Shown: piece after piece, positions 3,432-52,695 of the stretch | Layout of the letters: each line of letters opens with the position of its first letter | Position numbering within the stretch: the first letter of the stretch is position 1 | Assembly (NCBI GenBank): GCA_002946415.1 | Contig: NJPS01000062.1 | Location: 124,001 to 188,000, forward strand | DNA: 64,000 bases | Direction of reading: 5' to 3' | Source: Rutstroemia sp. NJR-2017a BVV2 | Taxonomy: Eukaryota; Ascomycota; Leotiomycetes; Helotiales; Rutstroemiaceae | The notes under the pieces: generated by a model | What the model was told of the DNA's origin: nothing | The model's database searches: none | Seen by the model: only the letters and a program-made list of their open reading frames with translations | Translations under genes and position numbers: made by a program

Positions 3432-5112
3432 TCATTCCGTATTCTTTTCACATGCCAGGGTCTTCGCGGTTACCGCTCTGCACATCACCCTCTCCTTACA
3501 TGCTGCTCTTTGAAAGTTTTGGCAAGCAGAAAGTCCCTCGTATCGCTGGGCCAATCGGCATAGTACGTACAGGGACTCCGTAATGCCCATCTCGCGTCCC
3601 ATGCATGCTCGCGGCCCTCCTCCGAAAGGAATATACTCCCATCTTTTCGGCTTGACTTTACTCCATCTGTCAGGGTTAAACTCTTCGGCATCAAGCCCGA
3701 ATACGGCTTTGTCGCGATGAAGAGCCCAGACACAAACGAATAACAACGTATTCTTTGGTACGAAGATCGGTGCAATATTGTCCGGCCCTCCACCACTTGG
3801 CAAGACGGTATCTTCGAGCGCGCTTCGGAAAATAGTCGATGTAACACGATACATTCGCAAGCCTGTGTTTCTAATGTCAACTGTGGAAAGAAAAAGACTT
3901 TCCTGGCGTCTGAAGGCGATTCTGGAACTTACCCTCATTTAGCAGGTATCTGGCATATGTCATCTTTCTTACTCTTTCCGTGCTTAGAGAATCACCATAT
4001 GCCCCAAATCTCATACTTTCTTCTCGCAAGCGCTTCCAGAGCTTTGGGCTTTTACCTAATTCCATAACAATATGACTGAGTACGCCCGGACCATTGGTTG
4101 TAAATCCCATCAACACCTGGATAACAAGATCCCGTAACTCTGTAGGATCTTGGAAGCCACGTATGAATTTTTCCAGAAGAGTGCTTTCTTCATCGTTCAA
4201 AGTATGCCGATTTTTCATCCTGAGTCTTCCCCTTCCGATTGCTCCTTCTGCAAATTTTTGTACTGACCGGCAAGCGCTTTTCCACTCCGTATCCCGGTCT
4301 AAGTGCTTGAGAGGACCACGAAGAAATCTTCGGCGAGATCCTACTTCTCCTTCTTCCAGCCAACCAACTATCTCCAGCGCAGTGGTCTGTTCGAAGCCTG
4401 GTACTTTGTTGTACGGTTCTCCAACGAGAAACTCATAGCCCGCTTCAAACATCTAATGGCAGGTGCGGTCAATGCCTGTGCATCAGGCAAACGAAGAAGT
4501 ACTAACCATGGCATAAATACGTGGCTTCAATTCTACCGGCTCGTCGTTGGGAAGGTCTCCAAGGTATTTCGCAAAATACCTGTCTATGACCGCGAGGTTG
4601 AGACGCGGCGCGTCTCTCCCATAGAAATGTGGCTTTGTCAGTTCGTGTGTTTTTCTCCACAGTTCACCATCAACAGTAATAATACCTCTTCCGCAATATT
4701 CCCCCAGGACTTTCAGCCGAGGATGCTGCACACCCCAAAGATCAAAATCTGTTTTCCACACTGCTCGTATATTGGCAGGGTGAATAGTGTGAATGACATT
4801 TCCCATCGGGGTCAGCCTCTTGAAAGTGGCACCATACTCGGTGTGTAAAATAGCTTGTCCTTCAACTACGGTGTGTCTTTTTTGTTGGTTACGAAAACCA
4901 AAAGACAGCTTGATGTTCTTTGATAGCGGGAACTGTGCGGGCTCTCGACAACCTAGCTTACGAGCTTTGACCCATAAAGTAACTTGACAATGTATAATGT
5001 AGCAGCAATAACACAGTATGGTTAGTTCGAAAACGATCAGAAATTGAGACATATGGTTGTTCTTTCCAAGATGAGGGATGTCAAGGTTCGTTGAAAAATT
5101 CAGAAAAGTCAT
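3432..5112 (-). CDS. cytochrome P450 monooxygenase (CYP52-like)
   Basis: This is a membrane-anchored P450 of about 518 residues in three exons: 5112-4507, 4452-3933 and 3862-3432. The two introns are 54 and 70 bp and join in phase 0 and phase 1. An N-terminal hydrophobic anchor (SQFLIVFELTILCYCC) is followed by a fungal CYP52-type body with TVDGELWRKTHELTKPHF and YEFLVGE. The K-helix ExxR is LNEGLRMY, the PERF region is FNPDRW, and the heme loop is FGGGPRACMG with the cysteine ligand near residue 462. The I-helix is abnormal: the usual AGRDTT is replaced by MGFTTNGPG, so the acidic residue of the acid-threonine pair is missing. The last 25 residues do not look like the family; an overlapping frame reads KEQHV there, so the C-terminus may be mis-modelled or frameshifted. 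It is divergent from a UstYa gene and probably belongs to the peptide cluster as an oxidative tailoring enzyme. Confidence 0.86.
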
Positions 5113-6441
5113 AGTAGTAGATACAGCGAGATCCAGCGAATCTTTGACTCTGAGACAACTCGACAGTCCGATGGTGGATAGATAGGCTGCTTTTGCGAGA
5201 GCTCAGGTCCTCCAGCTCAGTAAGATAACATTAAACTATCACCTAACGCCAAACGATAAAGTAGCTGAAATAACAAGGGTGTTTCTATTCACGCTGCAGG
5301 AAACGCGTTGCTGAAAATGTCAGTGGAGATTCTCCATGTTGAGGAGGTACCGGAGATACCGGTAAAGTGTGATGGCATTCCGTTTGTCGTGACTTTTCCC
5401 GAGTTCTGTGTGTAGGTCTTGAGGGGTAAGTTCTGTGGGGAGCCCTAGTCTCTATGACTAGTAGGGATGCAGACGTCTAAACCCACCCCTATTCTGGTAC
5501 TTCCTTAAGCGACTTTGCCACTTTGCTATTGATTAGGCGGTACTCAAGGGGAGGTTATCGAAATGTAACATAGAAGTGCTTATTAAAGAATTGGGTGGCA
5601 AGTTGTCATGGGTTATCAGAACTGATCTGCAGTGTATAGCGCCTCTCTTACTTCTACACCTTGTCCAGATAATGAAGCACGGTAGATTTTCTGTTGGTCT
5701 CTGCTAGGTATTACATCGTGCATATGCATATGCACGGAAGAAGTATCCGCTGAAGGAATCATATACTTAAGGATTGTTGCTGTTGGTTGGATTGTCAAAC
5801 CCTTGATGAACTGTCAGCGACAACTAATAGTCTAATACGGATAATTTATCTTACACAGTCTTGTTGTAACAACCGTGGTCTTTGAATGCAACGCAGTATA
5901 TTGCAATAGAGTAAAAATGAGCATGGATCACGACAGCATAACCAGAGAGCATGCTTCCTTTGGCGCACTAATTACGTGAATTACGTCTACATTTAAGACA
6001 CTAAGTCCGCCTCATCTGTGTGCACGCGGCGTAGACGTGTCGGAATGAAGATTTGCGAGGCAGAAATGGATTCAGTTGCGCGAACAAAGGCCCTATGACG
6101 CTCGAATACCAGAGAATCTCCGCCACAGCACACTATCTATATGATTAACATCGGTATCGTATGCAGAGGATGCTTATGATACCAGTGATCAAAACCCTGC
6201 CAAAATATAGGGAATTATACGACCCGACCGAACAGGACAGGATGCAGAGAGATTTTCTTGCGAGGTGTGCGAGCTACTCGGTCAATCTTGGATTCTAGAA
6301 CTTCATCACCGACACCGGAGACAGCAGATGGGGATGAAAGACATCCCCCAAGCTTGAATGTTCACATGTTGGCAGCAGCACTGCAATATACATACACTTA
6401 GCAACCTCAAACTCAATCTACGACAGTACAGTTCAATCACC
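5113..6441. other. divergent promoter region between P450 and UstYa-A
   Basis: This 1.3-kb region drives two genes pointing away from each other. It has no convincing ORF. A candidate regulatory word, ACCGGAGA, occurs at 5349 (as part of the near-repeat ACCGGAGATACCGG) and again at 6314 (ACCGGAGACAGCAG); a similar element sits upstream of the precursor gene at 9535. Binding is untested. Confidence 0.4.
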
Positions 6442-7205
6442 ATGTTCATTAAAAACACTCAGTATACCGCGCTTGACAGCCAGAGCGAGCATTCTAACGA
6501 TGAGACGCACCTGGAAAGCTCAACTCATCGGGTGCGATGTATATTGCCCTTTGTGAGGTACATTCTATTTGTTGCGATTGTCATTTCCTGTTCCGTTCTA
6601 TCATTCCACGTTGGTAGTCAGAGGACTGCTCTCCGCCGTCCATTATGTGATGAATCTATGTCTACTATTCCTCGTAGGTTCACTCACTTCCAATATGACC
6701 CAACTAACCCGGTATCAAATTAGTCTCGATTAGACCACACACTCTCACATACCAGCGTCCCTTTGCTGATGATCCTGCTCTCCGTCCCACGGACATCTGG
6801 GACACCATATTTCCCAACAATGGCACTGTCGGTGGGTACTTTTCCCACCCTACCATTGCCCCCCAGCGATCTACATTCTCTGCTTTCCACCAACTCCATT
6901 GTCTTCATGCTATCAGGGAAGCATACTACGACGCCATCAACGCATCTGAATCACGTCATTCTCACTCCAGCCACGCAAATATGCCATCGCACACTTCACC
7001 GGCTCATATCAGACATTGTATCGATTTAATCAGACAGAGTTTAATGTGTTATGCCGACACAACGATTGAAATTAAGGATGAGGAGATTAACGGAGTGAGG
7101 GGCTTTGGCACAATACATATGTGCAGGGACTGGAATGGGTTGGTGAGATGGACTGAGGAGACGCAGGAGAAGTACGGGATGGGGGAAACGCCGAACGGGA
7201 ATTGA
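6442..7205 (+). CDS. UstYa-family (DUF3328) oxidase, copy A
   Basis: A protein of about 239 residues of the UstYa family, the proteins that catalyse oxidative macrocyclisation and other oxidations in dikaritin-type peptide pathways (UstYa/UstYb of ustiloxin, PhomYa of phomopsin). Exons are 6442-6711 and 6756-7205; the 44-bp GTATCA...CCAG intron removes an in-frame TAG and restores the conserved frame. Layout: a short cytosolic tail, one transmembrane helix (about 35-56, VRYILFVAIVISCSVLSF), then the lumenal domain. This contains PTDIWDTIFP, the first HxxHC motif (HQLHC, about 135-139), the second (HIRHC, about 174-178), LMCYADTT and a C-terminal HMCRDWNGL. The ATG at 6442 is preferred over 6358 because of its ATCACCATG context and a normal-length tail. 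It is convergent with UstYa-B and about 2.5 kb from the precursor gene. Confidence 0.9.
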
Positions 7206-7563: not shown

Positions 7564-8551
7564 TTAATGCTCTTCCTGCTTAGAACTCACTAATGGCAGA
7601 CTGATATGTACATCCTCCGCGTTCTGAACTCCTGCTACATGCAAAGGATTGATCAACCCCTCAACTTCCTCAAGGGAGACCACCCTGTCTTTCACCGAAT
7701 CAATCATACCATCCCAATCCACACACTCGCGCTCGAATGGCTCAATATTCAAGATTGGTTTGTCTTGGGAATTGACCCAGAGAAACGTGGTCAACGATGT
7801 GTCTGGTCGACACATGAGGACTTGACGTAACATTTCTAAACAGTGGTCTAGATTGTTAGTGGTAGCATGCAAATTTAGGAATGGGCGAAATACCAATGTG
7901 GCGAGACATTTTCAGCATAGTCATTTCGTCTGCCGTGGAGAAGTATACATCGCGGTAAGACCATTGTCGGAGCATTTTCTGTATGTGGTCAGCTGGACAG
8001 CAATCAGGATGATATATGGAGACGACGAACCACGCAGTGAAGATGGTGGGAGACTTCCATCCAGACTAACTGGCCTCCTCCTTCAGGAAGCAGTACAGAC
8101 GATGGATGATTCCGATTTTTGGCAATCTCTTCATCGGTGGCTCGGAGACTGATATTGTCCAGAAGATCATGCCACTTGAGATCAATGTCATGATGATTTC
8201 TTCCGGCATATTCAGAGTGTAGGAAGTTTGGCGAAACCTTGGGACTATACTCGACTTTTGTGGAAGTAATTACTTTCGAAATGTAAGTTTAATACGAACT
8301 GATAGGGGTCAAAATGTGGCAAACTCACCTGGTTGAGGACATGACGCTTCGTTTGATGCGTGGTAGATAGCAAAGAAGACAACCAGAAAAAGTACAGTGT
8401 AAAGAGTGACAATGCCGCAATGAATTATGAACTTGGACTTGGAGGAAACTTTGTCCCATTTTTCGACCAGTGTTTGTTTGAATTTAGGCAAAGCTGGCAA
8501 TCCAGCTTCGTCGTAGATTTCCATCAACGGTTGTTTGTCTTCGTCCGCCAT
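7564..8551 (-). CDS. UstYa-family (DUF3328) oxidase, copy B
   Basis: A second UstYa-family protein, about 277 residues, in four exons: 8551-8329, 8272-8031, 7978-7894 and 7847-7564. Intron phases 1, 0 and 1 match throughout. The N-terminus is cytosolic with one transmembrane helix (about 45-68, IIHCGIVTLYTVLFLVVFFAIY). The lumenal part has VEYSP near residue 83, WHDLLDNI, the first metal-binding-type motif HHLHC (about 150-154) and the second, HIDHC (about 182-186), followed by LEMLRQVLMCRPDT. The motif spacing fits the family, while sequence likeness to copy A is limited to these motifs. UstYa proteins often work as pairs within one pathway (UstYa/UstYb), so two different copies flanking a repeat-peptide gene is the expected cluster signature. 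It points away from the precursor gene, sharing a 1.1-kb promoter region with it. Confidence 0.9.
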
Positions 8552-9686
8552 CTTTTCGATGTGATTTTATTCGATTTCGTTTCAGCTCATTTCATTTCAC
8601 ACATCCAATATATCCCCAAATTCCCATCCTATAAAACAATGAAGATCTTCAAGAGCATGTAATGGCCAGAGCCGAATATCGGAGATGAGCTTTGATGGAA
8701 TTCTTAGATACAATGAAGTCACAAATGAAAGTTTAGCACAGCTCGGTAAGTCCTATCCTGTGCAGGCTGGCTGATCGGGCCCCAAAGTTCCGAGAATACT
8801 TCAGGAGCAGGTGAAGGATCGGTGAACAACGCCCACCAACATGCAGATATGTTGTATGTAACCTTGCAATATCACCAACGCCAGATATGCTATCTGTATC
8901 CTAGCAATAGAGATATTCTGTCTGTATCTTATTAGCACCTTTAATGATAGAGTCAATGTAACATACACGCGCCATCCTCGCAAATGTAGTCATCATACCA
9001 GCTACCCCGCATCGTATATGCAATGGTACTCTCACTTAACTGCTGTCGGAATTTTGAAAGCAGCACAGGACAATTACCCCAGTGATTATACCTTCAGCCT
9101 TGCTTCTGTCTATCTTTGCTTTCTTTGCCACATACCAGCAGTGAAAGTCAGCAAGATGGGTTACATTATATGCACCCCTATTGCCAAAATGAATGTGAAT
9201 TACAGAACACCATGTCCCGGACCTCTTAGTTGGGTCCCAAAGGAATTCCCAAAGCCAGTGAGCTTGAAATACAACGCAAATTTCAAGGTAGAGAATGACA
9301 CTCGGTGAAATTACCATTATAGGATCCCTCTTCCCATCGATAATATGCATGCTACATATTACCGCAGGAGAAGTGATTGCGAGTGCATTAGTTCATGTGC
9401 CAACGGGCCGTCAACACCTGGTGATAAAGAAAAAGAACTTCCCTAAACGGTGTGTTCTCCTAGAGCTTACGTCGGTGACCCCATGATCTGGCAATAATTG
9501 CACCGCCAGCTCGAATCGGGGATGATTGACACAGACCGGGGTACAGCAGGAAGTTTGACAAATCGAGAGAACTCGGCAGCGTGGGATTTATATATTTTAG
9601 CATATCGAAACCATCTCAATACCTCTTTCCTTCAATAGACACATTATAGAGCCACTACGAGATCTTTTTCATCATATTCAGCGAAA
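8552..9686. other. divergent promoter region between UstYa-B and the precursor gene
   Basis: No gene is recognisable in this 1.1-kb stretch. It contains ATCGGAGATGAG at 8678 and ACCGGGGTACAGCAG at 9535, both similar to words found in the P450/UstYa-A promoter, and a TATA-like element close to the precursor start. Confidence 0.4.
9589..9597 (+). promoter_or_regulatory. TATA-like element of the precursor gene
   Basis: TATATATTT lies about 90 bp upstream of the precursor ATG in an otherwise mixed-composition promoter. The position is right for a TATA box with a leader of roughly 60 nt. Function is inferred from position only. Confidence 0.4.
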
Positions 9687-10232
9687 ATGAAAGCAAGTTG
9701 GATAGTTGTTGCGGCCTTCGGTCTTGGTGTCATCGCAGCTCCCCTTCAAGGTACGTGACCCGGACGAGCTATTCATAAAGTAGTGATTAATTTAAGACAC
9801 CCGCAGTTCGTGCTGATGCCGATGATACTATCGCGTATCTCGATGTCGTTGTTGACAGAGACTCCGATGTCAGCTACGAAGATGTATACGTCGACATGAA
9901 GAGCAAGAAAGTGAAAGGTAGATATTACAACCGAGATCCCCCCATGGCATCAAAGCTTAGAGAAGACAGAACGATCCGATGCAGATGAAATCATTGCATA
10001 CTTGGATGTTGTCGTTGACCGAGACTCCGATGTGAGCTACGAGGACGTCTATGTTGACATGAAGAAGACAATTAAAGGTATGCGCACCGAGCAATATCCA
10101 AAATGATGAATCTATGTCTAACGCAGATATTTAGCTCGTGCGGATGCAGATGATACCATTGCATACTTGGATGTCGTCGTGGATCGTGATTCGGATGTCA
10201 GCTATGAAGATGTCTATGTCGACATGAACTAG
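9687..10232 (+). CDS. dikaritin-type RiPP precursor peptide with three repeats
   Basis: This encodes a 126-residue secreted precursor in four exons: 9687-9750, 9807-9917, 9970-10077 and 10135-10232. All three introns are phase 1, so every repeat exon is symmetric. The signal peptide is MKASWIVVAAFGLGVIAAP, followed by three repeats of 37, 36 and about 31 residues. A 23-residue segment (from IAYLD to YVDM) is identical in all three. Repeats are joined by basic linkers (KSKKVKERS and KKTIKARA) suited to furin-like Kex protease cutting, although no KR pair is present. Each repeat holds two copies of a Y-x-D-V-x-V-D heptad (YLDVVVD and YEDVYVD), plausible cyclised cores because dikaritin cores carry a tyrosine and hydrophobic residues. 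Neighbours are two UstYa oxidases, a P450 and an O-methyltransferase. The RiPP role is inferred from this architecture; the core boundaries are unknown. It could instead be an unmodified secreted repeat protein, which the UstYa context makes less likely. Confidence 0.88.
9807..9917 (+). repeat. precursor repeat 1 (one exon)
   Basis: The exon encodes RADADDT, the invariant segment and the linker MKSKKVK. It is flanked by phase-1 introns on both sides, so it can be gained or lost without disturbing the frame. Compared with repeat 2, 13 of the 23 codons of the invariant segment differ in bases while the amino acids are the same (hand count). Confidence 0.88.
9970..10077 (+). repeat. precursor repeat 2 (one exon)
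   Basis: The exon encodes RSDADEI, the same invariant segment and the linker MKKTIK. Outside the invariant part it differs from repeat 1 at several residues, mostly in the linker. Compared with repeat 3, 11 of 23 codons of the shared segment differ synonymously. Confidence 0.88.
10135..10232 (+). repeat. precursor repeat 3 (terminal exon)
   Basis: The last exon encodes RADADDT, the invariant segment and ends directly after the VDM motif with Asn-stop, lacking the basic linker. The absence of a linker after the final unit is what would be expected if linkers exist only to be cut between units. Confidence 0.85.
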
Positions 10233-10698: not shown

Positions 10699-12127
10699 AT
10701 GTTGACACCACGCACTGCAGAACTGACTGCCATAATCTCTTCCAGCATCTCCACCCTTAACGACCATCTCAACAAATCTAATCATCCTCCCCCTTCCTTC
10801 GACATCAGTTCACCCCCCAATTACCCCTCACTCCCACCAGAAATTGCAGGTGCACGCATTGCCGCGATCGAAGCAACGAAAGAACTGCATGCTCTACTTC
10901 TTGGGCCGACGGATCATGTTCTCGGAAGTTCTGGAGATGTGTGTTTGAACACTTCCTTCTAGCGCCTTGCCGATTTCGTGTCTAATCTTATGTTATAGTA
11001 CTTCGACTTTCTCGGTCTCCAGTTTATTCATCGGTACAAGATTGCAACTGTCTTTCCTCCAGGAGAAGAAATGACGTTTGAGGAGATTGCAGCCGCTAGA
11101 AATTTGGATGTGAATGAGACTAAACGGTTCCTGCGTCTAGCTATGACCAATTATGTTTTCACCGAACCACACGAAGGTGTCGTAGCACACTCTTCTTGCT
11201 CAAAGGTACTTGCTGAGAATCGATACGCTGCTGCATGGCTTGGACATGCGGTTGAGAATGTATGGCCGACAATACCACACGTGCTAGATGCTAATGAGAA
11301 GTGGCCTGGCTCCGAGGAGCCGAATGAAACTGTATTTCAACCCCATTTTCATGACAATAGAAGAATCACTGATCGAGTTAGGGTTATGTATTGATGCACC
11401 CAAAAGGACTTACCCCATTCGCGCATCTTGAAGATAATTTACAAGCTGCACAACAGTTCTCCGATGGAATGAAATTCTTCTCGTTGATCCCAGGTTTAGA
11501 GCCGGAGCATCTCCTCGAAGCATTTGACTTCTCCACTCTTCAGGAGAACTCCGTCTTCGTAGATGTTGGCGGCTCACATGGTGTAATCAGCATCCTGGTG
11601 GCTCGGGCGTTCCCTAATATACGATGTATTGTGCAAGACTTGCCTCCAACAATTGCGAAAGTTGCAGGAAATCTACCATCAGACCTTACAGGCAAAGTTT
11701 CATTCATGGAACATGATTTCTTCGAGGAGCAGCCAGTGCAGAACGCCAACGTTTACTTTTTTCGCTGGATCTTCCACGACTGGTCTGATCTCTATGGGGT
11801 GAAGGTCCTAAGAGCTTTGATACCAGCGTTGAAACCTGGAGCGAAGGTTATCATTAGTGAGATGTGCATGCCTGAGTATGGACAGATGCCTTTGGCTATG
11901 CAGAAACTTCCCCGGTGAGTGATTAAGACGTTTATTGGCGCAAGGACTAATATCAGATGTTCAGATCTATGGATATAAACATGAAAGCGCAGTTCAACGG
12001 TAAGGAACGTGATGCGAAGGAATGGGGCTCGTTGCTAGAGAGGGCGGATCCTCGGTTCACGGTGGATAGTATCCGCAGACCAGTGCGATCTAAGTTATCT
12101 TTCATAATCGCGACTTGGAGCCCATAG
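10699..12127 (+). CDS. SAM-dependent O-methyltransferase (intact)
   Basis: A complete fungal O-methyltransferase of about 422 residues in four exons: 10699-10938, 10999-11331, 11382-11914 and 11965-12127, all phases matching. The N-terminal dimerisation domain contains LLGPTDHVLGSSGDYFDFLGLQ, a winged-helix part (MTFEEIAAARNLDVNETKR) and NETGYVL. The catalytic Rossmann domain has the SAM-binding loop FVDVGGSHGVISILVA, the acidic VQDLP, FMEHDFF, and RWIFHDWSD with the family's catalytic His-Asp. It ends with RADPRF and SFIIATW. The ATG at 10699 (TCACAATG) is preferred over the upstream in-frame ATG at 10627, which would add an unusual tail. It follows the precursor gene on the same strand and is a good candidate for methylating the cyclised peptide, for instance on a tyrosine hydroxyl; the substrate is inferred. 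It is not a close copy of the broken enzyme at the left edge. Confidence 0.92.
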
Positions 12128-14269: not shown

Positions 14270-16142
14270 CTAAGCTGCCCACTCCACCACCTCCAAAGCA
14301 CACATAACGAGGATAAGAGTAGATGGGAGAATCCTATCACGCACAAGTTAGCAATTTCGTCAATCTCTATTCCAGGAATCAGCAAAACTCACCAGATAAC
14401 ATAACTCTGGAAGAGCAGTTTACTCATAACCCCCTCATAAACTCCATTAATCTGACAAATCTGCGCCAACTGTAACGCGCTCGGCGCGCCCGTCAAGAGG
14501 AAACAGACAATAACAAAAATCGGATCATCCAGAATACTAACCGGCACATACTTCGCCGTCAGTGCCAAGAGAGGGGCCATGATGAGAGTAGGGAGTAACA
14601 TTCTGCTGATCAAACTCGCGACTAGAAGTTTAGTGCCGATTTTGTTCTCTTCCGAATTCTCGTCGTGCGCTTCTTGTGGCAGAGTGTTGCGCGCGAGATT
14701 AGCACCGAGCACGACTAGGATCAATGGGACAGCAACACCACCAGATTGGGAAACGGCTCGGGTAACGGAGTTGGCGATGAAGGAGCCTTCTTCAAAGAAC
14801 AGACGTTGGAGAGATGGAATAGAGGCGACGATAACGGCGAGGAGCATGGCCCAGAGTGGGGGGTTCATGAACTCCCAAAGGCCATTGATGAACCGGCTGA
14901 ATGCATTTGATACGCTGACGAGGGTGTGTTGGAGTGGAGTAGGGAGAGTTTCGAAGATCTTGTGGGAGACAGCTGCGATGTGCTCTGTGGTATGTGCAGC
15001 AGCTCTTCTGATCCGTAAACGCGTACGGGGGATCACTCCCTTGATTCCTTCTGGAATATCTTGCTCGTCCTCGATGGACTGGGTGCGGATGCTCGGGAAG
15101 GACGTAATATCACCGTCTGATGGGAGATAATTTCCGTTCGTCGGTGCGGGTATCATGCCGGGGATCTTCACAGGTTCCACAGGTTCGTCAGCTGACGGGT
15201 ATGAGCCAGCGTATTGATCATTCGTGACGGGAGTTCTCCCACCGGAGTGAAACGAGTTTGTTGAACTTCCGTGTTCATCCTCATCGCTATTTACGCCGTC
15301 CAGACCTGGTATTAACTCCGGTTCATCTCTGTATCGTCCACCTTCGATGTCCTCATCATCCTGGTATTTCTCGGGTGGTGCAAGCAAAACGTGATAACCC
15401 CAACTCCATCGAACAAGTTGTCCTAGCTGTTGGAAGATCAGCAAGTAAAGAATACCTCTCGCGGCAACCTCGTCGTCATTATCCCCAGGTATTCTGTCCC
15501 AATGCAGACCCTTAAGTGTTTGCGATAAAGAAATGACGAGTGAGATCGGCAGGGAGTTTGAATTTCCGAAGACCTAATAACGCACTGTTAGCACTTCCAT
15601 CCGCCATTCATATCAGTAAACTTACTCCCATAGCCGTGACGAAATTCGATGCGCGTTTAGTGAATCCGAATGCTCTGCCAACAGCAAGAGACACCAAATA
15701 CGAGACCAAAGTCTGAACGATGAAAATGACCGGGATAACCGCGAGCTCGACAAGTTTCTCAGCAGTCAATTGTGATGCCAATTTTGTGAAAACTATCTCC
15801 GTCAGTCTAGTCCATAATCACGCAGCTTCCATACGTACTCAGACATGGTGTGAAAAGGGCAACATTCAGATTCGCCACGAATTTCTGCTTGTCCGCATCG
15901 AACATCCCTTGTCTCGCAACGATATAACCCGGAAGACTGACGCAGACGACTTCCATCACCGCTTCGAATACCAGGAGTATGAGATGGCCTAAGGCCGGAT
16001 GTGAGCTGTGGTCGTTGGCTCGTCGTACGATTGATCCGAACGCCACATCCGTGAACGATCTCGTTGATAATGCGCCGACGTCATTATTTCCCGCAACAGC
16101 ATTTGCCAGTCGAAAGGATGTGGGTGAGGTAAATAACCCCAT
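14270..16142 (-). CDS. auxin efflux carrier (AEC)-family membrane transporter, Ecm3-like
   Basis: A 571-residue multi-pass membrane protein of the AEC/PIN-like family that includes yeast Ecm3; the substrate is unknown. Exons are 16142-15839, 15792-15626, 15573-14393 and 14333-14270, all phases matching. The N-terminal half has helices around HLILLVFEAVMEVVCVSLPGYIVA and LAVIPVIFIVQTLVSYLVS, then the conserved VFGNSNSLPISL segment. A long acidic and serine-rich cytosolic loop of about 130 residues follows (DEDIEGG...EDEQDIPEG). The C-terminal helix bundle has NPPLWAMLLAVIVASIP, SGGVAVPLILVVLGANLAR and FLLTGAPSALQLAQI. The last exon gives WILPSTLILVMCALEVVEWAA, typical of the family's end. The ATG at 16142 is the first true ATG; an open frame further upstream has only a GTG. 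It is convergent with the cluster methyltransferase and probably not part of the cluster. Confidence 0.93.
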
Positions 16143-35766: not shown

Positions 35767-37524
35767 CTAACTCGAGCTTGTACCTACTTGCATCGGAACA
35801 TCCTTTGCAGCCAGGTACATCTCATCCAACCCCCTTTATACAATCCCTCAGTCAGCTTCCTCAAAACCGTTCCTTTCCCTGCTCTCGCCATAGGTTTCCC
35901 CACCTTCGTGAACAGAATCAGCTTTTCCGTTATCCTCCCATACCTCGATTTTTTCTCATTTGCCTTTTCGATGAATGGCCAGAGTTCTTTTACAAACGCT
36001 GCCCTCTCATCTTTGTCTCTGGGTGGATTCCTGCCTCCACTAGCAATGAAACCCTCTCCCTTCCCTGCCCACAAACGATCGCTAACACCACAGAAGGATG
36101 GCCATTTACTAAACCTTCCATTCCTATCGGATTGAACTTCTGTCCCGTAGAACAAACAATCACGTCATCGGAACGCCCTTCGAATTTCCAAAGTCCAGGT
36201 TTATGTGGATGTTTAGAGAAGAGATCTTTTGTCCGGTATTCGTGCAAGGTAGGAAATGTAGAGAACACGCCTTGGAAAAGGCTCAGTTCGGCATTACGGA
36301 TAAACACAAGTTCATACAAATCGCCAGTAAATGGACGAAGTTCAATACCCATGCGCGAACTGAAGCTCATATACTCCCAATCCTCCGGGTCGGTAAGTAG
36401 GAGAGGATAGTAGCCCGTCTCTGTCGCGCCGAAGCTGATGAAAAGATGCGTTTGCGCTCTTATCATTTCGCCAGTTTCATGTGGAAGCGGACCACCGCCA
36501 TCGGTGACATACTTGAGTCGTCGGATACTTTCCAGGTACAAAGGATTCTTGGCGATGTCGACGAGGATAGAGGGGCTGAGGAAACTCACGTCGAGGTTCC
36601 CATGCAGGTGGGCTTGATTCGCGAGTTCGGCGGTCATGGGAACGGGTGGTGGGATGACGAGTGTGGTATTGGAGTAGATGGCAAATGCTACGGAACACAT
36701 TGCTGCGCTGTGAAAGAGCCCGAGACCAATGAATACTCTCTTGTTGCTGAAAATAGCGGATGCGACGGGGGCTTCACCAGGTGGTGGAAGAATGAGGAAG
36801 GTGTCGTGATGGGCTACGGTTCCGTGGGTTAAGATGACGGGTTTTGGGAAACCGGTTGATCCAGATGTGTGTAGGACAACAAAGGGATCATGTCGGGCCT
36901 CGTCGAATGTCATGGTGTATGGGTATGGGTTTACTGGGTCGGGATGGAGCAATTCATCCAGATTCTGTATTGTCAAAGTACGCATCTGTCTTTGCGATAG
37001 AACGATCCGAGTGAGAGCCGGTATATCTTCCGGAACCAGTAAAATCGTGCATTTAAGAGAATCGAGGAGTGACAAATGAGCGTCTGCACTGTTCATCGGC
37101 GAGCTGAAGAAAAGCTATATACTTAGATTAGCTAACTTCCTCTATTCGTTCGAAAATAGGCATTGACCTGATATCCAGTTTTGATGACAGCGAGCAGTAA
37201 TATGATGTACCTCAGGTCTTGGGGCCCAACATAGTTGATGGTCTCGAAAGTGTCGTTCCGTCCAATATTTGCTTCTATCCACCACGCACAACGATTGATA
37301 GCGCGACTGATCTCTTCAAAAGTTATGTCGCGAAATCCATCTTGAATACGGGTTGTGAGAGGTATGGACACGGAAACGCGTGTGGGATCGGTTGAGGCAA
37401 GCTGATCGATAACGACGGGGAGAAGTCGCCTTCCGCGGTCGGAGGGGTTAACGGATTCATTCTCCAAATTCACTCGAGAGGTTTGTGGTGATCGCTTCCT
37501 GAGCTTTGATATTGATGTGACCAT
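35767..37524 (-). pseudogene. NRPS-like / acyl-adenylating enzyme (AMP-binding), frame-broken and truncated
   Basis: This is the adenylation module of an NRPS-like or carboxylate reductase-type enzyme. The first exon (37524 to about 37165) carries RLLPVVIDQLA and FRDITFEEISRAINR; a GTCAAT...TATATAG intron leads to LFFSSPMNSADAHLSLL. Core motifs then follow: A3 LHTSGSTGFPKPVILTHG, LGLFHSAAM, VTDGGGPLP, A5 FGATETGYYPLL, A7/A8 YRTKDLF and FEGRSDDVIV. Near 36028-36036 the frame shifts; homology resumes in another frame with ERAAFVKELWPFIEKAN and the A10-like KGTVLRK. It shifts again in a run of Cs near 35829-35834 before a stop at 35767-35769. No carrier (PP-binding), thioesterase or reductase domain follows. 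The second shift in a homopolymer could be a sequencing error, but two shifts plus missing downstream domains argue for a dead gene. Confidence 0.8.
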
Positions 37525-40240: not shown

Positions 40241-41248
40241 CTATGCATCGCAAGAATCGTCATCATCAGATGCGGTTGCGGTTGGGGCAGCGGCAGCAGA
40301 TGTAGCCGACGCAACGCTGGTGACGAAAGTGGATGGGGCAGCGACGGAAGAAACAGCTGAGGTCTGCGAAGCGGCAGCGGCGGTGGTTGAAGCGGCAACT
40401 GCAGAGGTAGCAACGCTAGCAGCGCTGGTAGCAGATGCACTACCAGTAGCGGCACCAGTAGCACCGTATAATGCTGGTCCAGGGATGGTGTACGAGGCCA
40501 TGGAGGCGTAGATGTTGACCAAGATACCTGGGTCGGTTGGGGTGTAGAGAGCCTCACCGAGAGTCCCCGCTGGTGCAGCGGAGCCACTGCCAGTGACATC
40601 GAGGTTGATACATTGTGGGTAGTTCTGTGCTCCATCCGATGACTCGGCTCCGTGAAGAGCAATGATTTCGTGACGCAAGACGTAACCACCGGCGGCGATA
40701 TCGGAGGGAATGGTGATAGTCCATGTGTTGTTGTTGGCAATCATCTTATCAGATGCCCATGTTCCGGGGACGGTGGTGTCGTCGATCAAACCACCTTCAT
40801 CGATCTTGAAGAACTTGAGAGTAGTCTTGTCAACAGTGGTGCAGTCTCCGCCACAGTTTGCGAGGTAGCTAATGACTGGGCCGTGATGAGATTCGGGCCA
40901 TGTAGTCCACTGGAGGTCAATGGTTCCACCGGCAGCCACGGTGGCTGAAAGTGCAGCGTTGGTAGCACTCTTTGCGCAAATGATATCCGGACCGGCATAC
41001 TGAGAGGGGCTCTCGAATCCCAAGTCGAGGTTGGCATCAGCCCAACCAATTCGCTTTGGTGCGGTGCTTGCGTATGAATCCGATGGAGTCCAGTTCGGAG
41101 TGCTATCGTGGGGGTTAGTTTTGTCTCTTGACGCCCAAGAATATAGTTCAGCTTACTAAGTTCCGTCGATGACAATACCCGAAACGTAACCGTGGGCAGC
41201 GACTGATGCAACGCATCCAGCGAAAGCGGCGATCTTAGTGAAAGACAT
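40241..41248 (-). CDS. AA9 lytic polysaccharide monooxygenase, copy 1
   Basis: A secreted copper enzyme of 317 residues that oxidatively cleaves cellulose (AA9, formerly GH61). Exons are 41248-41157 and 41102-40241. The signal peptide [18 protein letters not shown] is cut to expose the essential N-terminal His of HGYVSG, which forms the histidine brace. The second copper His lies in [13 protein letters not shown] and the axial Tyr in QNYPQCINL. Conserved [25 protein letters not shown] and [13 protein letters not shown] complete the fold. Instead of a cellulose-binding module the C-terminus is a tail of about 85 residues rich in Ala, Ser and Thr, ending DDDDSCDA. It would be induced by plant cell wall material; that is family knowledge, not seen here. 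It is paralogous to the AA9 gene at 47784, from which it diverges. Confidence 0.95.
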
Positions 41249-47783: not shown

Positions 47784-49090
47784 ATGTCTTTCTCCAAGAT
47801 CTCCGTCATGGCTGGTGCCGCTTTTGTTTCTTCCGTTGCAGCTCACGGTTTTGTCCAAAACATCGAGGCTGAGGGTGTCTGGTGAGTTGATCAGAGTCCC
47901 ATCTCAGGTCGAATTGCATTCTAATAGTTTCACCAGGTACCAAGGTTACAACCCAAGTTTCCAATACCAGACCCCAGCACCAGTTGTTGCCGGATGGTCC
48001 GACCCTAAGGACTCGGATAACGGATTCGTTGCCCCCGATGCGTACGCAACCGGCGACATCATCTGCCACAAGAGCGCAACCAACGGTCAAGGTTACGTCA
48101 ATGTAACTGCTGGAAGCGATGTTACTTTGGCATGGAACACCTGGCCAGTATCTCACCACGGTCCAGTCCTCGGTATGTGAAGGTATCAGCATGTACATAC
48201 AGTTGTAGCTAATATTTGACGCAGATTATCTGGCGAGCTGTGACGGTGACTGCACGACAGTTGACAAGACCGGCCTCGAATTCTTCAAGATCGACGGTGT
48301 TGGACACATTAGCGGTTCCAACCCAGGTATCTGGGCCACCGACAACTTGATTGCCAACAACAACTCCTGGGCAGTTAACATCCCAAGCACTCTCGCCCCC
48401 GGTCCATATGTTCTCCGCCATGAGATCATCGCACTTCACAGTGCCAACCAGGCTGATGGTGCTCAAAACTACCCCCAATGCATCAACTTGTGGGTTAGCG
48501 GTACCGGAACCGCAAGCCCCTCTGGTGAGGTCGCAACCTCGTTCTACACTGAGACCGACCCAAGCATTCTGTTCAACCTCTACCAGGACTTCTCCTCCTA
48601 CTCAGTTCCAGGCCCCGCCCAATGGTCCGGAGCCACCTCATCTGCTCCTCTAAGCGCATACTCTGCCACCCCATCCGGAGGTGCCGTCGCCACCGGAGCT
48701 GCCTCATCTGCTGTTTCCAGCGCCACCATCGCATCTTCATCCGCCATTGCCACTAGCGCCGCTGTTTCCCAAGCATCCAGCGCCGTTGCAGCTTCATCCG
48801 CCACCTCTGCCGTTGTCTCTGCCACCAGCGCAGCATCCGCAGTTGTTGCAACCAGCGCCGCCTCGAGCTCCAAGAAATCTTGCTCCAAGGCTGCTACATC
48901 TGTTCTTTCATCCGCTCAAGTCGCAGCTGTTACACCGGCCCCAGTTGTCTCCTCCGCCGCCGCCGCTGGTGGATCCAATGTTATTACTCTAGAAATCACC
49001 GACTACGAATGGGTCACTGACATTGTCACTGAGACTGTCACCGCTGGTGCCCAGAAGATGCGCCGTCATGCTCGTGATGTTCGCGCATAA
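47784..49090 (+). CDS. AA9 lytic polysaccharide monooxygenase, copy 2
   Basis: A second secreted AA9 copper monooxygenase, 399 residues, exons 47784-47881, 47937-48172 and 48225-49090. The signal peptide [20 protein letters not shown] precedes the mature N-terminal His of [17 protein letters not shown]. The brace His is in [13 protein letters not shown], the axial Tyr in [11 protein letters not shown], and the core includes [11 protein letters not shown] and [19 protein letters not shown]. After the catalytic domain comes a very long tail of about 170 residues, dominated by Ala, Ser, Thr and Val. It closes with [16 protein letters not shown] and a basic end; no carbohydrate-binding module is seen. 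It shares the catalytic architecture and the same kind of tail with the copy at 40241-41248 but has an extra intron after SHHGPVL, so duplication was not recent. Confidence 0.95.
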
Positions 49091-49710: not shown

Positions 49711-52695
49711 TCATTTCCCTTCATCCTCTTCCTCATGCTCTTTCGCAGAAGTTGTTTCTTCGACCTTCGCAGTCCCATCCTCATTCGTCGCAAGTTCACC
49801 CTTGAGCTTGCGCTGCCACTCCTGATCATTCCTACCAACTGTTCGTTTATCATAAATCTCGCTTGGTCTGTATGGCCAGAACTTGAATCGTCCATGCCGC
49901 CTCGCAGTGTTTGAGGAGAACGACAGTCCTACAATATCCTTCTCTGCCTTATCAGGCACTCTTGCGACAAGAACCGTATTAGACCCCACAATATCAACCA
50001 ATTTGTAGGCACTCTGCATAAATTCTTCTTCATACGCAGGCTGCTGATCTGTTCTTATGGGCAATAAACGTAATTCCGATCCAGATCCGCCAGCTTTTCC
50101 ACCTTCAATAGTTGTGTAAGTAGTCTCCCATCCATCGAAATCGAAAGCCATAGTATTCCTATACTCTAGGCCAGCAAACAGATAATCGACAGGGAAGAGC
50201 TTATGACCTTCAAAGCGGCCCTGCGGATCGATAAGTGATCGCGCACCCGGTGAACAGATGTGGTCTGCCATAGGAATTATTAGCGACGCCGGTGTTTCCA
50301 AAGGCCGATCGCTGGCAAGATCTAGATTGCATTTCCCTACGAAAGATTCAATGCTTGGAGAGAATTGGCGATCTTCTAAAGGACCATGAAATGGTATCAT
50401 GTAAGATGACACCCTGTGCTGGAAACGAAGATCATACTTAGACTGCGGGAGCATTAGATCGGAGGTATCGGCGGATGTGATGGCTCTGACATCACGAAGT
50501 TTTGCTTGACGATATTTGAAATTGATGGAGAACCTCATCTCGATCAGTGGGAATGCGGTCAACGCTTTCGCACCAATTAAACCACCATCTGTTTGCTCGG
50601 CCCAAGGATTGGGTTTAAATCTCATTATCAGTGTTTCGAAAGGCCTGAATGTTAAAAGGGGTGCATCGCGCAATGCACGAAAGATGCTGGAGATATCAGA
50701 AGAAAAAGTGTGAAGTACTTCGGGCCTAGATGTAGCGCTTAGTTCCCTCGGCACAAAAGTGTTGTCACTTGTAAAGCCATGCAAGACACGCCCAGCAACA
50801 GCAGAAGTTTCAATAGAGCCATCCCCTGACCACGCCACTTCTGTATCCCACGAAGCTTCCACTTCGTCCGTCTTAGAGGTAGGACTTCGTTGTCGAGAAC
50901 CGGATGTTATATCTTGCATCTCATCTGAATCTCTGATAGGGGCGTCATGGTGAGCCAAAATGGTCGACTGAGCCGGGGACTGGTCTTTTGAGGCCTGTGG
51001 TGTCTCATTTGATCTCTTTTTCGCATTAAGGGAATCTTGCTTGGGCTTCTTAGAGGTCTGGTCATCCGCCTCCTCCTTTGCGATCGGCACAGTCCATCGA
51101 TGCCATTTTTGCATTCTTTGATGCCAAGGAAGGCCCTTTAATCCCTCTTGCTTGATGAAAGCTCCTTTTTGATCTTCTAAAGGAGCTTTGTATTCTATTC
51201 TCAGAGACTCGCGGTCTGCAAGAGGGGAAGAACTAAGCAGTAATCTTCGCGCAACTTCATGCTTCGTTGATGTTTGGGTCGGCGCATCGAATTCAATATT
51301 TGAAATAATCACCTGTGACTTCATTAGAGAGATATATGAATGTGGGTGAGTGGAATGACTAGCCTGTGGTTGCCCTTTGTAGTCAGATTTTTCAATCTCC
51401 GTATTTGTTAGTTGACCAATAGTTCTCAGGATCAACTCGCTGCTATGCCTTTTCTCTAATTTTTTATCTTTGGTTTTTGGAAAAATAGGTCTTAACAGTA
51501 GCGACGTTCGAGAAATGTGTCGCAACGCATCTTCGATTTCCGCCACAATCAGAGCTGCCTTTTCTCGGTTCGATGTTATGCGCACAACGTCCCGTTTTCG
51601 GAACACTTCAATCTTTTCAACCTTACTGAAGATATAGTTGGCACTGATCGATTTCAGGAAGCCTTGTTCTGCAGGGGAAGTTCTGTTAGCCTTTGGGAGA
51701 GAAAAAGCCATGACTATTCACTTACTGACCAAGAGCTCAAGCTCTGCCGGATTGAATTGAACCTCAGCTTGACCAATGCCCTCCTCTATCTCGGGCACAC
51801 CAACTTTCCAACACTGCCTAATTATCTCAAGAGCAGAGATCTGCTTAGAAGTGAAGGATGGTGTAGAATACCCAATCAAAGGACTCTCTTTAAGAAGCTC
51901 CGTTGGCCCAAAGGTTTCCGGCACCCATGCTGACACTCGCACGATACCATTGGTATTGATTAGATCTGGAGCTAGTGATGGTAGTATTTTGGTCCTGCCT
52001 TCGAATGCCCTGAGATATTGGCGCATCTGGCCATATGTAAAACCGCCTTCCATGACTTGAACGAGATCGATGAGATTGGCCCAGCTCACCGAGTTCCCTT
52101 CCGTTGCAGGCCGGAAATCATTTATATTGGAAAAGATCTCATTGTTTGAGACAATGCCCCGCTCGCTTTGAAGTTTTTCAAGAATGTCTATGTTTACTGG
52201 TGGTTGCGCTACTTCGGTATTCTTTTTTTCGGACAGAAATGAAGTAAACTTAGCATCTCGAAGAACAATGACCTCTGCATTTTTACCCAGCGATTTCACA
52301 TCCAGAGCTTCACTTGTTTCCCATTGTCCATTTTCCTTCCCTCCTAGAAGGCGGCCCAAAGGCCGTTTCCAGCCTGCACTTCTCGGAAGGGTACGATAAT
52401 TCTTTCTCTTATGTGTTTGTGAGGTGAAATTCTCTTCTGGATCCCACGCATTACTTCTGCTGAAAGGTTTAGAGACTCTCTCACTCTGCGTGCCCAGTTG
52501 ATCATCTGCCTGTGCGCTCGAGGTATCATCTGCTTGTGTGCTCGAGGTATCGTCTGCTTGTGTGCTCGAGGAATCATCTGCTGCTGCGGAGCGGGTGCTG
52601 ATCGTTCGACATAGAAGAGAAGGTATTGGTCGTTGACCCAAACGTATCTGACATCTTAAGCAGACAGTCAGACCAGAAACTGGCCTACGAATCAT
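49711..52695 (-). CDS. sls1: Sls1-like mitochondrial inner-membrane gene-expression factor
   Basis: A 975-residue mitochondrial protein related to fungal Sls1, an inner-membrane-associated factor that coordinates transcription and translation of mitochondrial genes. Two exons, 52695-51726 and 51668-49711, are joined across a 57-bp intron with GTAAGT, GCTAACA and CTGCAG signals, giving LELLVKQGFLKSISANYIF. The N-terminus is a basic presequence (MIRRPVSGLTVCLRCQIRLG...RTISTRSA). Then comes an acidic repeat of ADDTSSTQ units, and a conserved region with NIDILEKLQ, INDFRPATEG and WANLIDLVQVMEGGFTYGQMRQYLRAF. The second exon has KVEKIEVFRKRDVVRITSN and a C-terminal part with FRFSINFKYRQ-like and FKFWPYRPSEIYDKRTVG. 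The ATG at 51711 lies inside the intron and is not a separate gene start. Assignment rests on overall resemblance to fungal Sls1. Confidence 0.82.
52495..52575. repeat. 24-bp coding minisatellite in sls1
   Basis: About three copies of a 24-bp unit encode ADDTSSTQ-like octapeptides just after the mitochondrial presequence. Unit variants differ by one or two bases. Length variation here would stay in frame. Confidence 0.85.

Follow-up and report, generated by a model that had tools for sequence, protein, structure and literature searches.

The gene at positions 9687-10232 of a 64,000-nucleotide stretch from Rutstroemia sp. NJR-2017a BVV2 (the window, C59:124001-188000) raises the question of what a protein built of near-identical repeats does among genes of the UstYa family. 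A dikaritin-type RiPP precursor had been proposed in a sequence-only reading. The gene product is probably a RiPP precursor of the UstYa type. The genomic case is strong, whereas the product molecule, its cross-links and its methylation are predictions.

Table 1. Predicted features of the window and of a related cluster on contig C3 of the same genome
Feature	Position	Strand	Details
Precursor gene	9687..10232	+	4 exons, 126 aa; splice model
Precursor exons	9687-9750, 9807-9917, 9970-10077, 10135-10232	+	
Probable signal peptide, MKASWIVVAAFGLGVIAA	9687..9740	+	N-terminal hydropathy; approximate cleavage near VIA/APLQ
Conserved block, unit 1, IAYLDVVVDRDSDVSYEDVYVDM	9830..9898	+	
Conserved block, unit 2	9993..10061	+	identical peptide
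Conserved block, unit 3	10158..10226	+	identical peptide
UstYaA	6442..7205	+	2 exons, intron 6674-6723, 237 aa; HQLHC...HIRHC; PF11807 4e-23
UstYaB	7564..8551	-	4 exons, introns 8328-8273, 8030-7979, 7893-7848; 277 aa; HHLHC...HIDHC; PF11807 3.5e-37
O-methyltransferase (PF00891)	10699..12127	+	4 exons, introns 10939-10998, 11332-11381, 11915-11964; 422 aa; PF00891 1.6e-25 (exon 3 scanned)
Cytochrome P450 gene or remnant	3432..5202	-	only the last ORF, 3432-3938, matches PF00067 (4e-23); cluster membership uncertain
C3 O-methyltransferase	735400-736939	-	paralog of window O-methyltransferase
C3 MFS gene	737672-738763 scanned	-	between O-methyltransferase and precursor
C3 precursor	740676-~741041	-	two units in one open frame
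C3 UstYa, plus strand	~742090-742894	+	
C3 UstYa, minus strand	743428-~744246	-	best own-genome paralog of UstYaB

The four-exon splice model, predicted from the DNA, agrees with the position, exon number and three units originally claimed (Table 1). Its introns (56, 52, and 57 nt) are all GT..AG and all in phase 1, and the first lies just before unit 1 while the other two fall within linkers, so that each unit would occupy its own exon; by their coordinates, exons 2 (111 nt) and 3 (108 nt) form symmetrical modules. An alternative acceptor of intron 2 at 9960 is also open and would add three linker residues (129 aa), but the linkers of Sclerotinia nivalis seem to fit better with the shorter form. 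A TATA-like stretch was noted by reading at 9587-9599. The predicted protein has a hydrophobic N-terminus, consistent with the signal peptide already suggested, which is probable as judged by hydropathy alone, and then three units of ~36 residues, in the layout MKASWIVVAAFGLGVIAAPLQVR-ADADDTIAYLDVVVDRDSDVSYEDVYVDM-KSKKVKER-SDADEIIAYLDVVVDRDSDVSYEDVYVDM-KKTIKAR-ADADDTIAYLDVVVDRDSDVSYEDVYVDM-N.

The units had been described as near-identical, and their 23-residue centres, IAYLDVVVDRDSDVSYEDVYVDM (residues 30-52, 67-89, and 103-125), are in fact identical in all three. The DNA of these blocks varies in 20 of 69 columns, with pairwise differences of 14, 15, and 11 of 69 nt, and third codon positions hold 36 of the 40 pairwise differences. 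When 15 substitutions were placed at random, none of 20,000 trials kept the block peptide unchanged. This silent divergence, together with the simulation, argues for selection on the block peptide rather than chance or a recent DNA duplication. A hand-made alignment of 13 units (three from the window, three from S. nivalis, one of them without its start, two from C. jacksonii, and five from the metagenome fragments P0003, P0005, P0007, P0008, and P0009, with P0004, P0006, and P0010 excluded) is invariant, where residues are present, at positions 8-30 (12/12 for positions 8-10 and 13/13 for 11-30) except position 15, the sole variable residue of the block (V in eight, T in three, A in two of 13). 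Conservation ends at M30, after which the linker is variable. Within the block, five of seven residues agree between the heptads YLDVVVD and YEDVYVD; because D and V make up so much of the unit, this internal YxDVxVD repeat was put to a shuffle test, in which a best pair of 5/7 arose in 191 of 20,000 shuffles and a Tyr-anchored one in 27 of 20,000, and the repeat is suggestive only. A Pfam match of the unit to DUF7215 (PF23852) scored 23.4 bits against a cut-off of 27, had no genome hit and was attributed to chance.

From residue 25 on, 26 Asp and 19 Val are found among 102 residues, a very acidic and repetitive composition that would also suit a secreted protein acting whole, at the surface or in the matrix, with no peptide precursor involved. 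This explanation is hardly probable at all in view of linkers that are both variable and basic, of an Arg directly before the unit in 12 of 12 cases, of the small number of repeats (three in the window, two in the C. jacksonii model P0002), and of the UstYa and O-methyltransferase context. In several fragments, the residues upstream of that Arg are unreliable because the fragments resemble unspliced exon reads.

The linkers are indeed basic, as had been claimed, and their description can be corrected in detail: KR, RR, and RK are absent from the precursor linkers, KK occurs twice, and an [LVI]xxR motif stands ahead of each unit. The motifs preceding the units read LQVR, VKER, and IKAR in the window, IKAR and MKAR in S. 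nivalis, VKGR in C. jacksonii, and VESR on contig C3. In sections of PMC8528282, the Kex2 motif is expanded to an aliphatic P4 and a variable P2, with no direct Kex2 contact at P3, and the sites before the units would fit this motif, with Met as P4 being a stretch. The P2 residues of the window motifs (Glu, Ala, or Val) count against such cleavage, the proposed motif being an extension, as does the KR in the linker of the relatives P0007 and P0008 (EKRVKG). The same motif recurs inside the block as VV[V/A/T]DR/DSD, with position 15, where the block varies, as its P3, and a cut at VVDR/DSD would give two cores per module if Asp were tolerated at P2. The invariant spacer RDSDVS, on the other hand, argues for one 23-residue peptide; one such peptide and two short cores per module seem about equally likely.

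With regard to the neighbouring genes, the two UstYa genes and the O-methyltransferase noticed earlier are borne out by two PF11807 matches and one PF00891 match flanking the precursor. UstYaA and UstYaB are convergent, both with intact open models, each keeping two HxxHC motifs, and in 12 UstYa homologs taken from the best 120 of 331 hits both motifs retain their two His and their Cys without exception. UstYaB has four homologs at 60-66%, and P0011 and P0012 are close homologs of UstYaA. No solved structure was found among UstYa relatives by sequence search. It was reported, in parts of PMC12435403, that CctR, a member of the UstYa family, has a binuclear copper centre in the HxxHC motif, and the same paper cites a dependence of ApnU and AprY on copper and dioxygen. 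The O-methyltransferase starts 466 nt past the precursor stop. Of the 23 tyrosinase (PF00264) matches in the genome, none lies on contig C59.

Further left of UstYaA are P450 and GST ORFs, on which the RiPP argument does not depend. Reading of the P450 region (3432-5202, minus strand) gave no evident intact model, and the region is possibly decayed; its two upstream ORFs have no family at E <= 0.01. To the right, a Mem_trans ORF (14389-15573) is not evidently part of the cluster, a subset of the ORFs having been scanned. The UstYa pair and the O-methyltransferase might instead serve a polyketide, NRPS, or terpenoid pathway, with the precursor as a bystander. UstYa proteins do act on non-RiPP products too, cyclochlorotine being an example in parts of PMC12435403, and an AMP-binding ORF (35990-37114) was seen in a scan that covered part of the window ORFs. 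However, this ORF lies at a distance of ~24 kb, beyond protein-kinase and carboxylesterase ORFs, the precursor sits between UstYaB and the O-methyltransferase, and the same combination of genes is repeated on contig C3, so a bystander role is highly unlikely.

When the precursor was compared with its own genome (43.4 Mb, 79 contigs), three matches at E <= 1 were obtained, which are its three unit exons, and no other such locus was found. A whole-genome search for the DNA pattern encoding DDxIAY gave five sites, two in the window, two in a precursor on contig C3, and one elsewhere, while the reversed pattern gave none; the lead-in of the middle window unit reads DEIIAY, unlike DDxIAY. The fifth site, C29:159247, is antisense to an MFS-like ORF and was set aside.

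The C3 cluster (735-744 kb) resembles that of the window in having a precursor with the ADxDDxIAY lead-in and VxxR, a convergent UstYa pair, and a PF00891 O-methyltransferase, whose match to the window enzyme (735694-736858) reaches 54% in the best exon. It differs in its core (AYAWFNEDG instead of YxDVxVD heptads), in its units lying in one frame, and in an MFS transporter gene inside the cluster. The first own-genome paralog of UstYaB is found here (C3:743437-743952, 33%, 99.5 bits; the next, on C58, has 69 bits), ~2.4 kb from the precursor, whose second unit, RTPADGGDDDDAIAYAWFNEDGTEKEVE, has the lead-in and VxxR in common with the window. The plus-strand UstYa could not be read continuously across exons or frames, with a TGA inside the match and the first HxxHC not seen. 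Among the loci compared, UstYaA is closest to one on C12 (45%) and not to C3 (32%), which counts against the correspondence; neither a repeat precursor nor an O-methyltransferase was seen in the parts of C12 scanned. A diverged cluster with the same four gene types appears to be the strongest evidence for the RiPP reading. It also weighs on the possibility of a repeat protein cut by Kex2 into linear acidic peptides that leave the cell unmodified and serve as signals, pheromones, or effectors, while the UstYa enzymes and the O-methyltransferase act elsewhere. The long block, with no swapping of cores between genera, is what a signalling peptide would show, and a DUF3328 gene is near only 22% of the genes for Kex2-processed repeat proteins (KEPs) according to portions of PMC7329392; yet a related precursor is joined on C3 to two UstYa genes and an O-methyltransferase, the closest paralog of UstYaB among them, and unmodified peptides are therefore considered unlikely. 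Unit conservation, the flanking UstYa and O-methyltransferase genes, and the C3 cluster together make a RiPP precursor very probable.

The association of O-methyltransferases with UstYa genes extends through the genome. Of 21 O-methyltransferase-like loci, six have one of the 29 UstYa loci within 10 kb, where 0.31 would be expected (binomial tail 5e-7), and three have one within 5 kb, where 0.17 would be expected, duplicate-contig rows having been dropped. These six include the window, from which the query family was taken, and two of them flank a single UstYa locus on C39, which leaves five UstYa loci involved. No repeat precursor was found in the scanned parts of C39 and C68. A scan for repeats covered 20 regions, 19 with UstYa genes and one being the left flank of the window, and repeat precursors were recognised by reading beside UstYa genes in six of the 19, excluding that of the window. 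Precursors of this kind include those on C34 (L012, plus strand, ~4440-4900, AYVHGSYGYDKR three times), C50 (L018, plus strand, 8100-9080, HHTEAQIAAKKAKAAKGQRDVEEREP twelve times), C59 at 45.9 kb (L022, plus strand, 4900-5130, GTDADAANKVYKR six times), C38 (L026, minus strand, ~960-1230, QDRGTDTVTDDKVKR type), and C54 (L030, plus strand, 6600-6920, NNFEVDSEIGANRYATAKR type, about five times). Unlike those of the window, the units end in KR in four of these five. A possible exon-split precursor with KAREAAPEANPADYGNYGDC units adjoins a UstYa gene at C43:145-155 kb (L029, minus strand, 600-1700).

Relatives of the precursor were detected among predicted proteins by single-sequence search in S. 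nivalis (P0001, OCU04_008177, E 1.9e-39), C. jacksonii (P0002, ACMFMF_011706, E 1.5e-26, two units), and a JGI record (P0003, E 3.5e-13), and P0005, P0007, P0008, and P0009 were added by a profile search whose profile included the doubtful P0004. P0004 (E 0.35 alone) and P0006 were dropped, both being significant only once P0004 was in the query alignment, which is circular. These two JGI metagenome proteins are TPR-like by reading, occur in 24 and 13 contigs, end in or near DRDSDVSYEDVYFDM, and carry ADRDSDVSYEDVYFDM or a variant, close in sequence to the second half of the conserved block, by chance or homology. P0010 (PF09720) is unrelated.

Judged by UstYaA, the nearest named relatives among the best 120 of 331 hits are Rutstroemia sp. 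NJR-2017a WRK4, at 97% over the covered part of the query, and Clarireedia jacksonii, at 92%, in line with a probable place in the Rutstroemiaceae. In a composite neighbour search of predicted proteins (best 120 of 331 hits), the C. jacksonii UstYaA is ACMFMG_008734 and the O-methyltransferase (P0024) is ACMFMG_008731, the longest contig of both records being 1,209,886; the two tags in between would leave room for a precursor and UstYaB. A search of fungal genomes for the repeat next to UstYa genes had been proposed; the units themselves recur in S. nivalis and C. jacksonii, and gene order in other species is inferred from locus tags. P0014 (UstYaA-like) and P0015 (UstYaB-like) both come from 2,047-base contigs, possibly one and the same. 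Four Xylariales proteins (P0025, P0027, P0028, and P0029) combine PF00891 and PF11807 in single predicted proteins, either as true fusions or as merged neighbours, with a UstYa part resembling UstYaA by reading; either way, an O-methyltransferase lies beside UstYa. No UstYa or O-methyltransferase of S. nivalis was among the best 120 of 331 hits, though its precursor is present, and the precursor searches of predicted proteins gave none from Rutstroemia WRK4 or B. calthae, both of which have UstYa homologs. Such misses are weak evidence either way, because only predicted proteins were searched and short four-exon genes are easily missed. The C3 paralogous cluster, the core shared across genera, and the C. 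jacksonii tags three apart support the dikaritin-type interpretation, and these comparisons suggest a UstYa-type reading beyond mere adjacency.

The known dikaritins (ustiloxin, phomopsin, and asperipin-2a) likewise have an ER-targeted precursor with tandem Tyr-containing cores and an adjacent UstYa/DUF3328 gene. Their repeats are of 13, 14, and 8 residues for ustiloxin, phomopsin, and asperipin, as given in parts of PMC7329392, whereas the window has 36-residue units with a 23-residue invariant block, a length that counts against the RiPP reading. Methyltransferases are also present in the ustiloxin and phomopsin clusters, where they are N-methyltransferases (UstM and "PhonM" as printed, in excerpts of PMC11285071). 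DUF3328/UstYa is regarded as the class-defining dikaritin enzyme, and the five-gene definition of Ding includes a methyltransferase, a tyrosinase, and a transporter or peptidase (PMC12048977, in part). The window has UstYa proteins with two HxxHC motifs, a precursor with repeated cores and a signal by hydropathy, and a methyltransferase (PF00891), but no tyrosinase. It further differs from the dikaritins in the absence of KR, in having one unit per exon, and in the PF00891-type O-methyltransferase. To our knowledge, asperipin likewise lacks a tyrosinase. Without a tyrosinase and without a KR-bounded short core, the predicted protein is dikaritin-like by the DUF3328 criterion only. According to passages of PMC12048977, no dikaritin cluster had ever been reported with an O-methyltransferase. 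Lichen RiPP Clan R1 (Parmeliaceae), as outlined in the same passages, resembles the window in gene content, with two UstY genes and an O-methyltransferase, there between them; it has a tyrosinase and no identified repeat precursor, the reverse of the window.

The window protein is also similar to KEPs, as a secretory repeat protein with basic linkers. KEP mining requires at least three repeats of at least eight residues between KR, KK, RK, or RR (PMC7329392, in part), and with its two KK sites the predicted precursor might pass this rule. One KK is found in P0001 of S. nivalis, whose doubtful N-terminal part also has an RK, and one in P0002 of C. jacksonii; with so few dibasic sites, the annotated relatives may escape such mining. 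The repeat segment had been called unfamiliar, and strings from the window and C3 cores (YLDVVVD, YEDVYVD, SDVSYEDVY, AYAWFNEDG, and DTIAYLD) were found in none of the 5.39 million papers searched, a silent listing in the supplementary KEP tables of PMC7329392 or PMC6339444 being possible. Among the matches listed, titles and abstract openings of UstYa- and host-related literature do not mention the window cluster. Four adjacent DUF3328 gene pairs and one putative RiPP cluster are described for S. sclerotiorum in parts of PMC6941272.

For the preferred reading, a UstYa-type RiPP, the following route can be inferred. The precursor would enter the ER, each exon-encoded unit representing one peptide module, (A/S)DADDTIAYLDVVVDRDSDVSYEDVYVDM. 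A Kex2-like protease may free the modules at LQVR, VKER, and IKAR, each followed by [A/S]DAD, and their basic tails would be trimmed. As members of a family of binuclear-copper oxidases, UstYaA and UstYaB might recognise the ADxDDxIAY lead-in, which is acidic, and act on the Tyr-rich core, where oxidation would most likely give Tyr-O to C-beta cross-links, or similar ones, within YLDVVVD and YEDVYVD, its two YxDVxVD heptads. A Tyr/hydroxyl or an Asp/Glu carboxyl could then be capped by the O-methyltransferase.

More tentatively, and with the balance somewhat against it, the window could represent a distinct class of UstYa RiPPs, with an exon-modular precursor, a two-heptad core of ~23 residues, the ADxDDxIAY lead-in, LxxR-type release, and O-methylation. 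If true, this would explain why the precursors of some UstYa-O-methyltransferase clusters, such as lichen Clan R1, escape dibasic-site mining. The window and C3 clusters offer a candidate recognition element, ADxDDxIAY, and a candidate cleavage rule, [LVI]xxR, which differs from the dibasic rule of precursor mining. Leader-dependent bacterial RiPP enzymes recognise a conserved lead-in, and the pair of clusters makes it testable whether UstYa enzymes do so.

Some other features of the assembly and the window were also recorded. Contigs C74 versus C25 and C50, and C37 versus C8, gave identical match scores, with identical coordinates too for C25 and C74, which suggests redundant or chimeric contigs. 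A 24-bp tandem repeat of 3.4 copies at 52501-52582, within the ORF 51718-52695 (minus strand), encodes Ser/Thr-Gln-Ala-Asp-Asp repeats. In addition, two AA9 lytic polysaccharide monooxygenase ORFs are located ~7 kb apart at 40241-41152 (minus strand) and 48209-49090 (plus strand).
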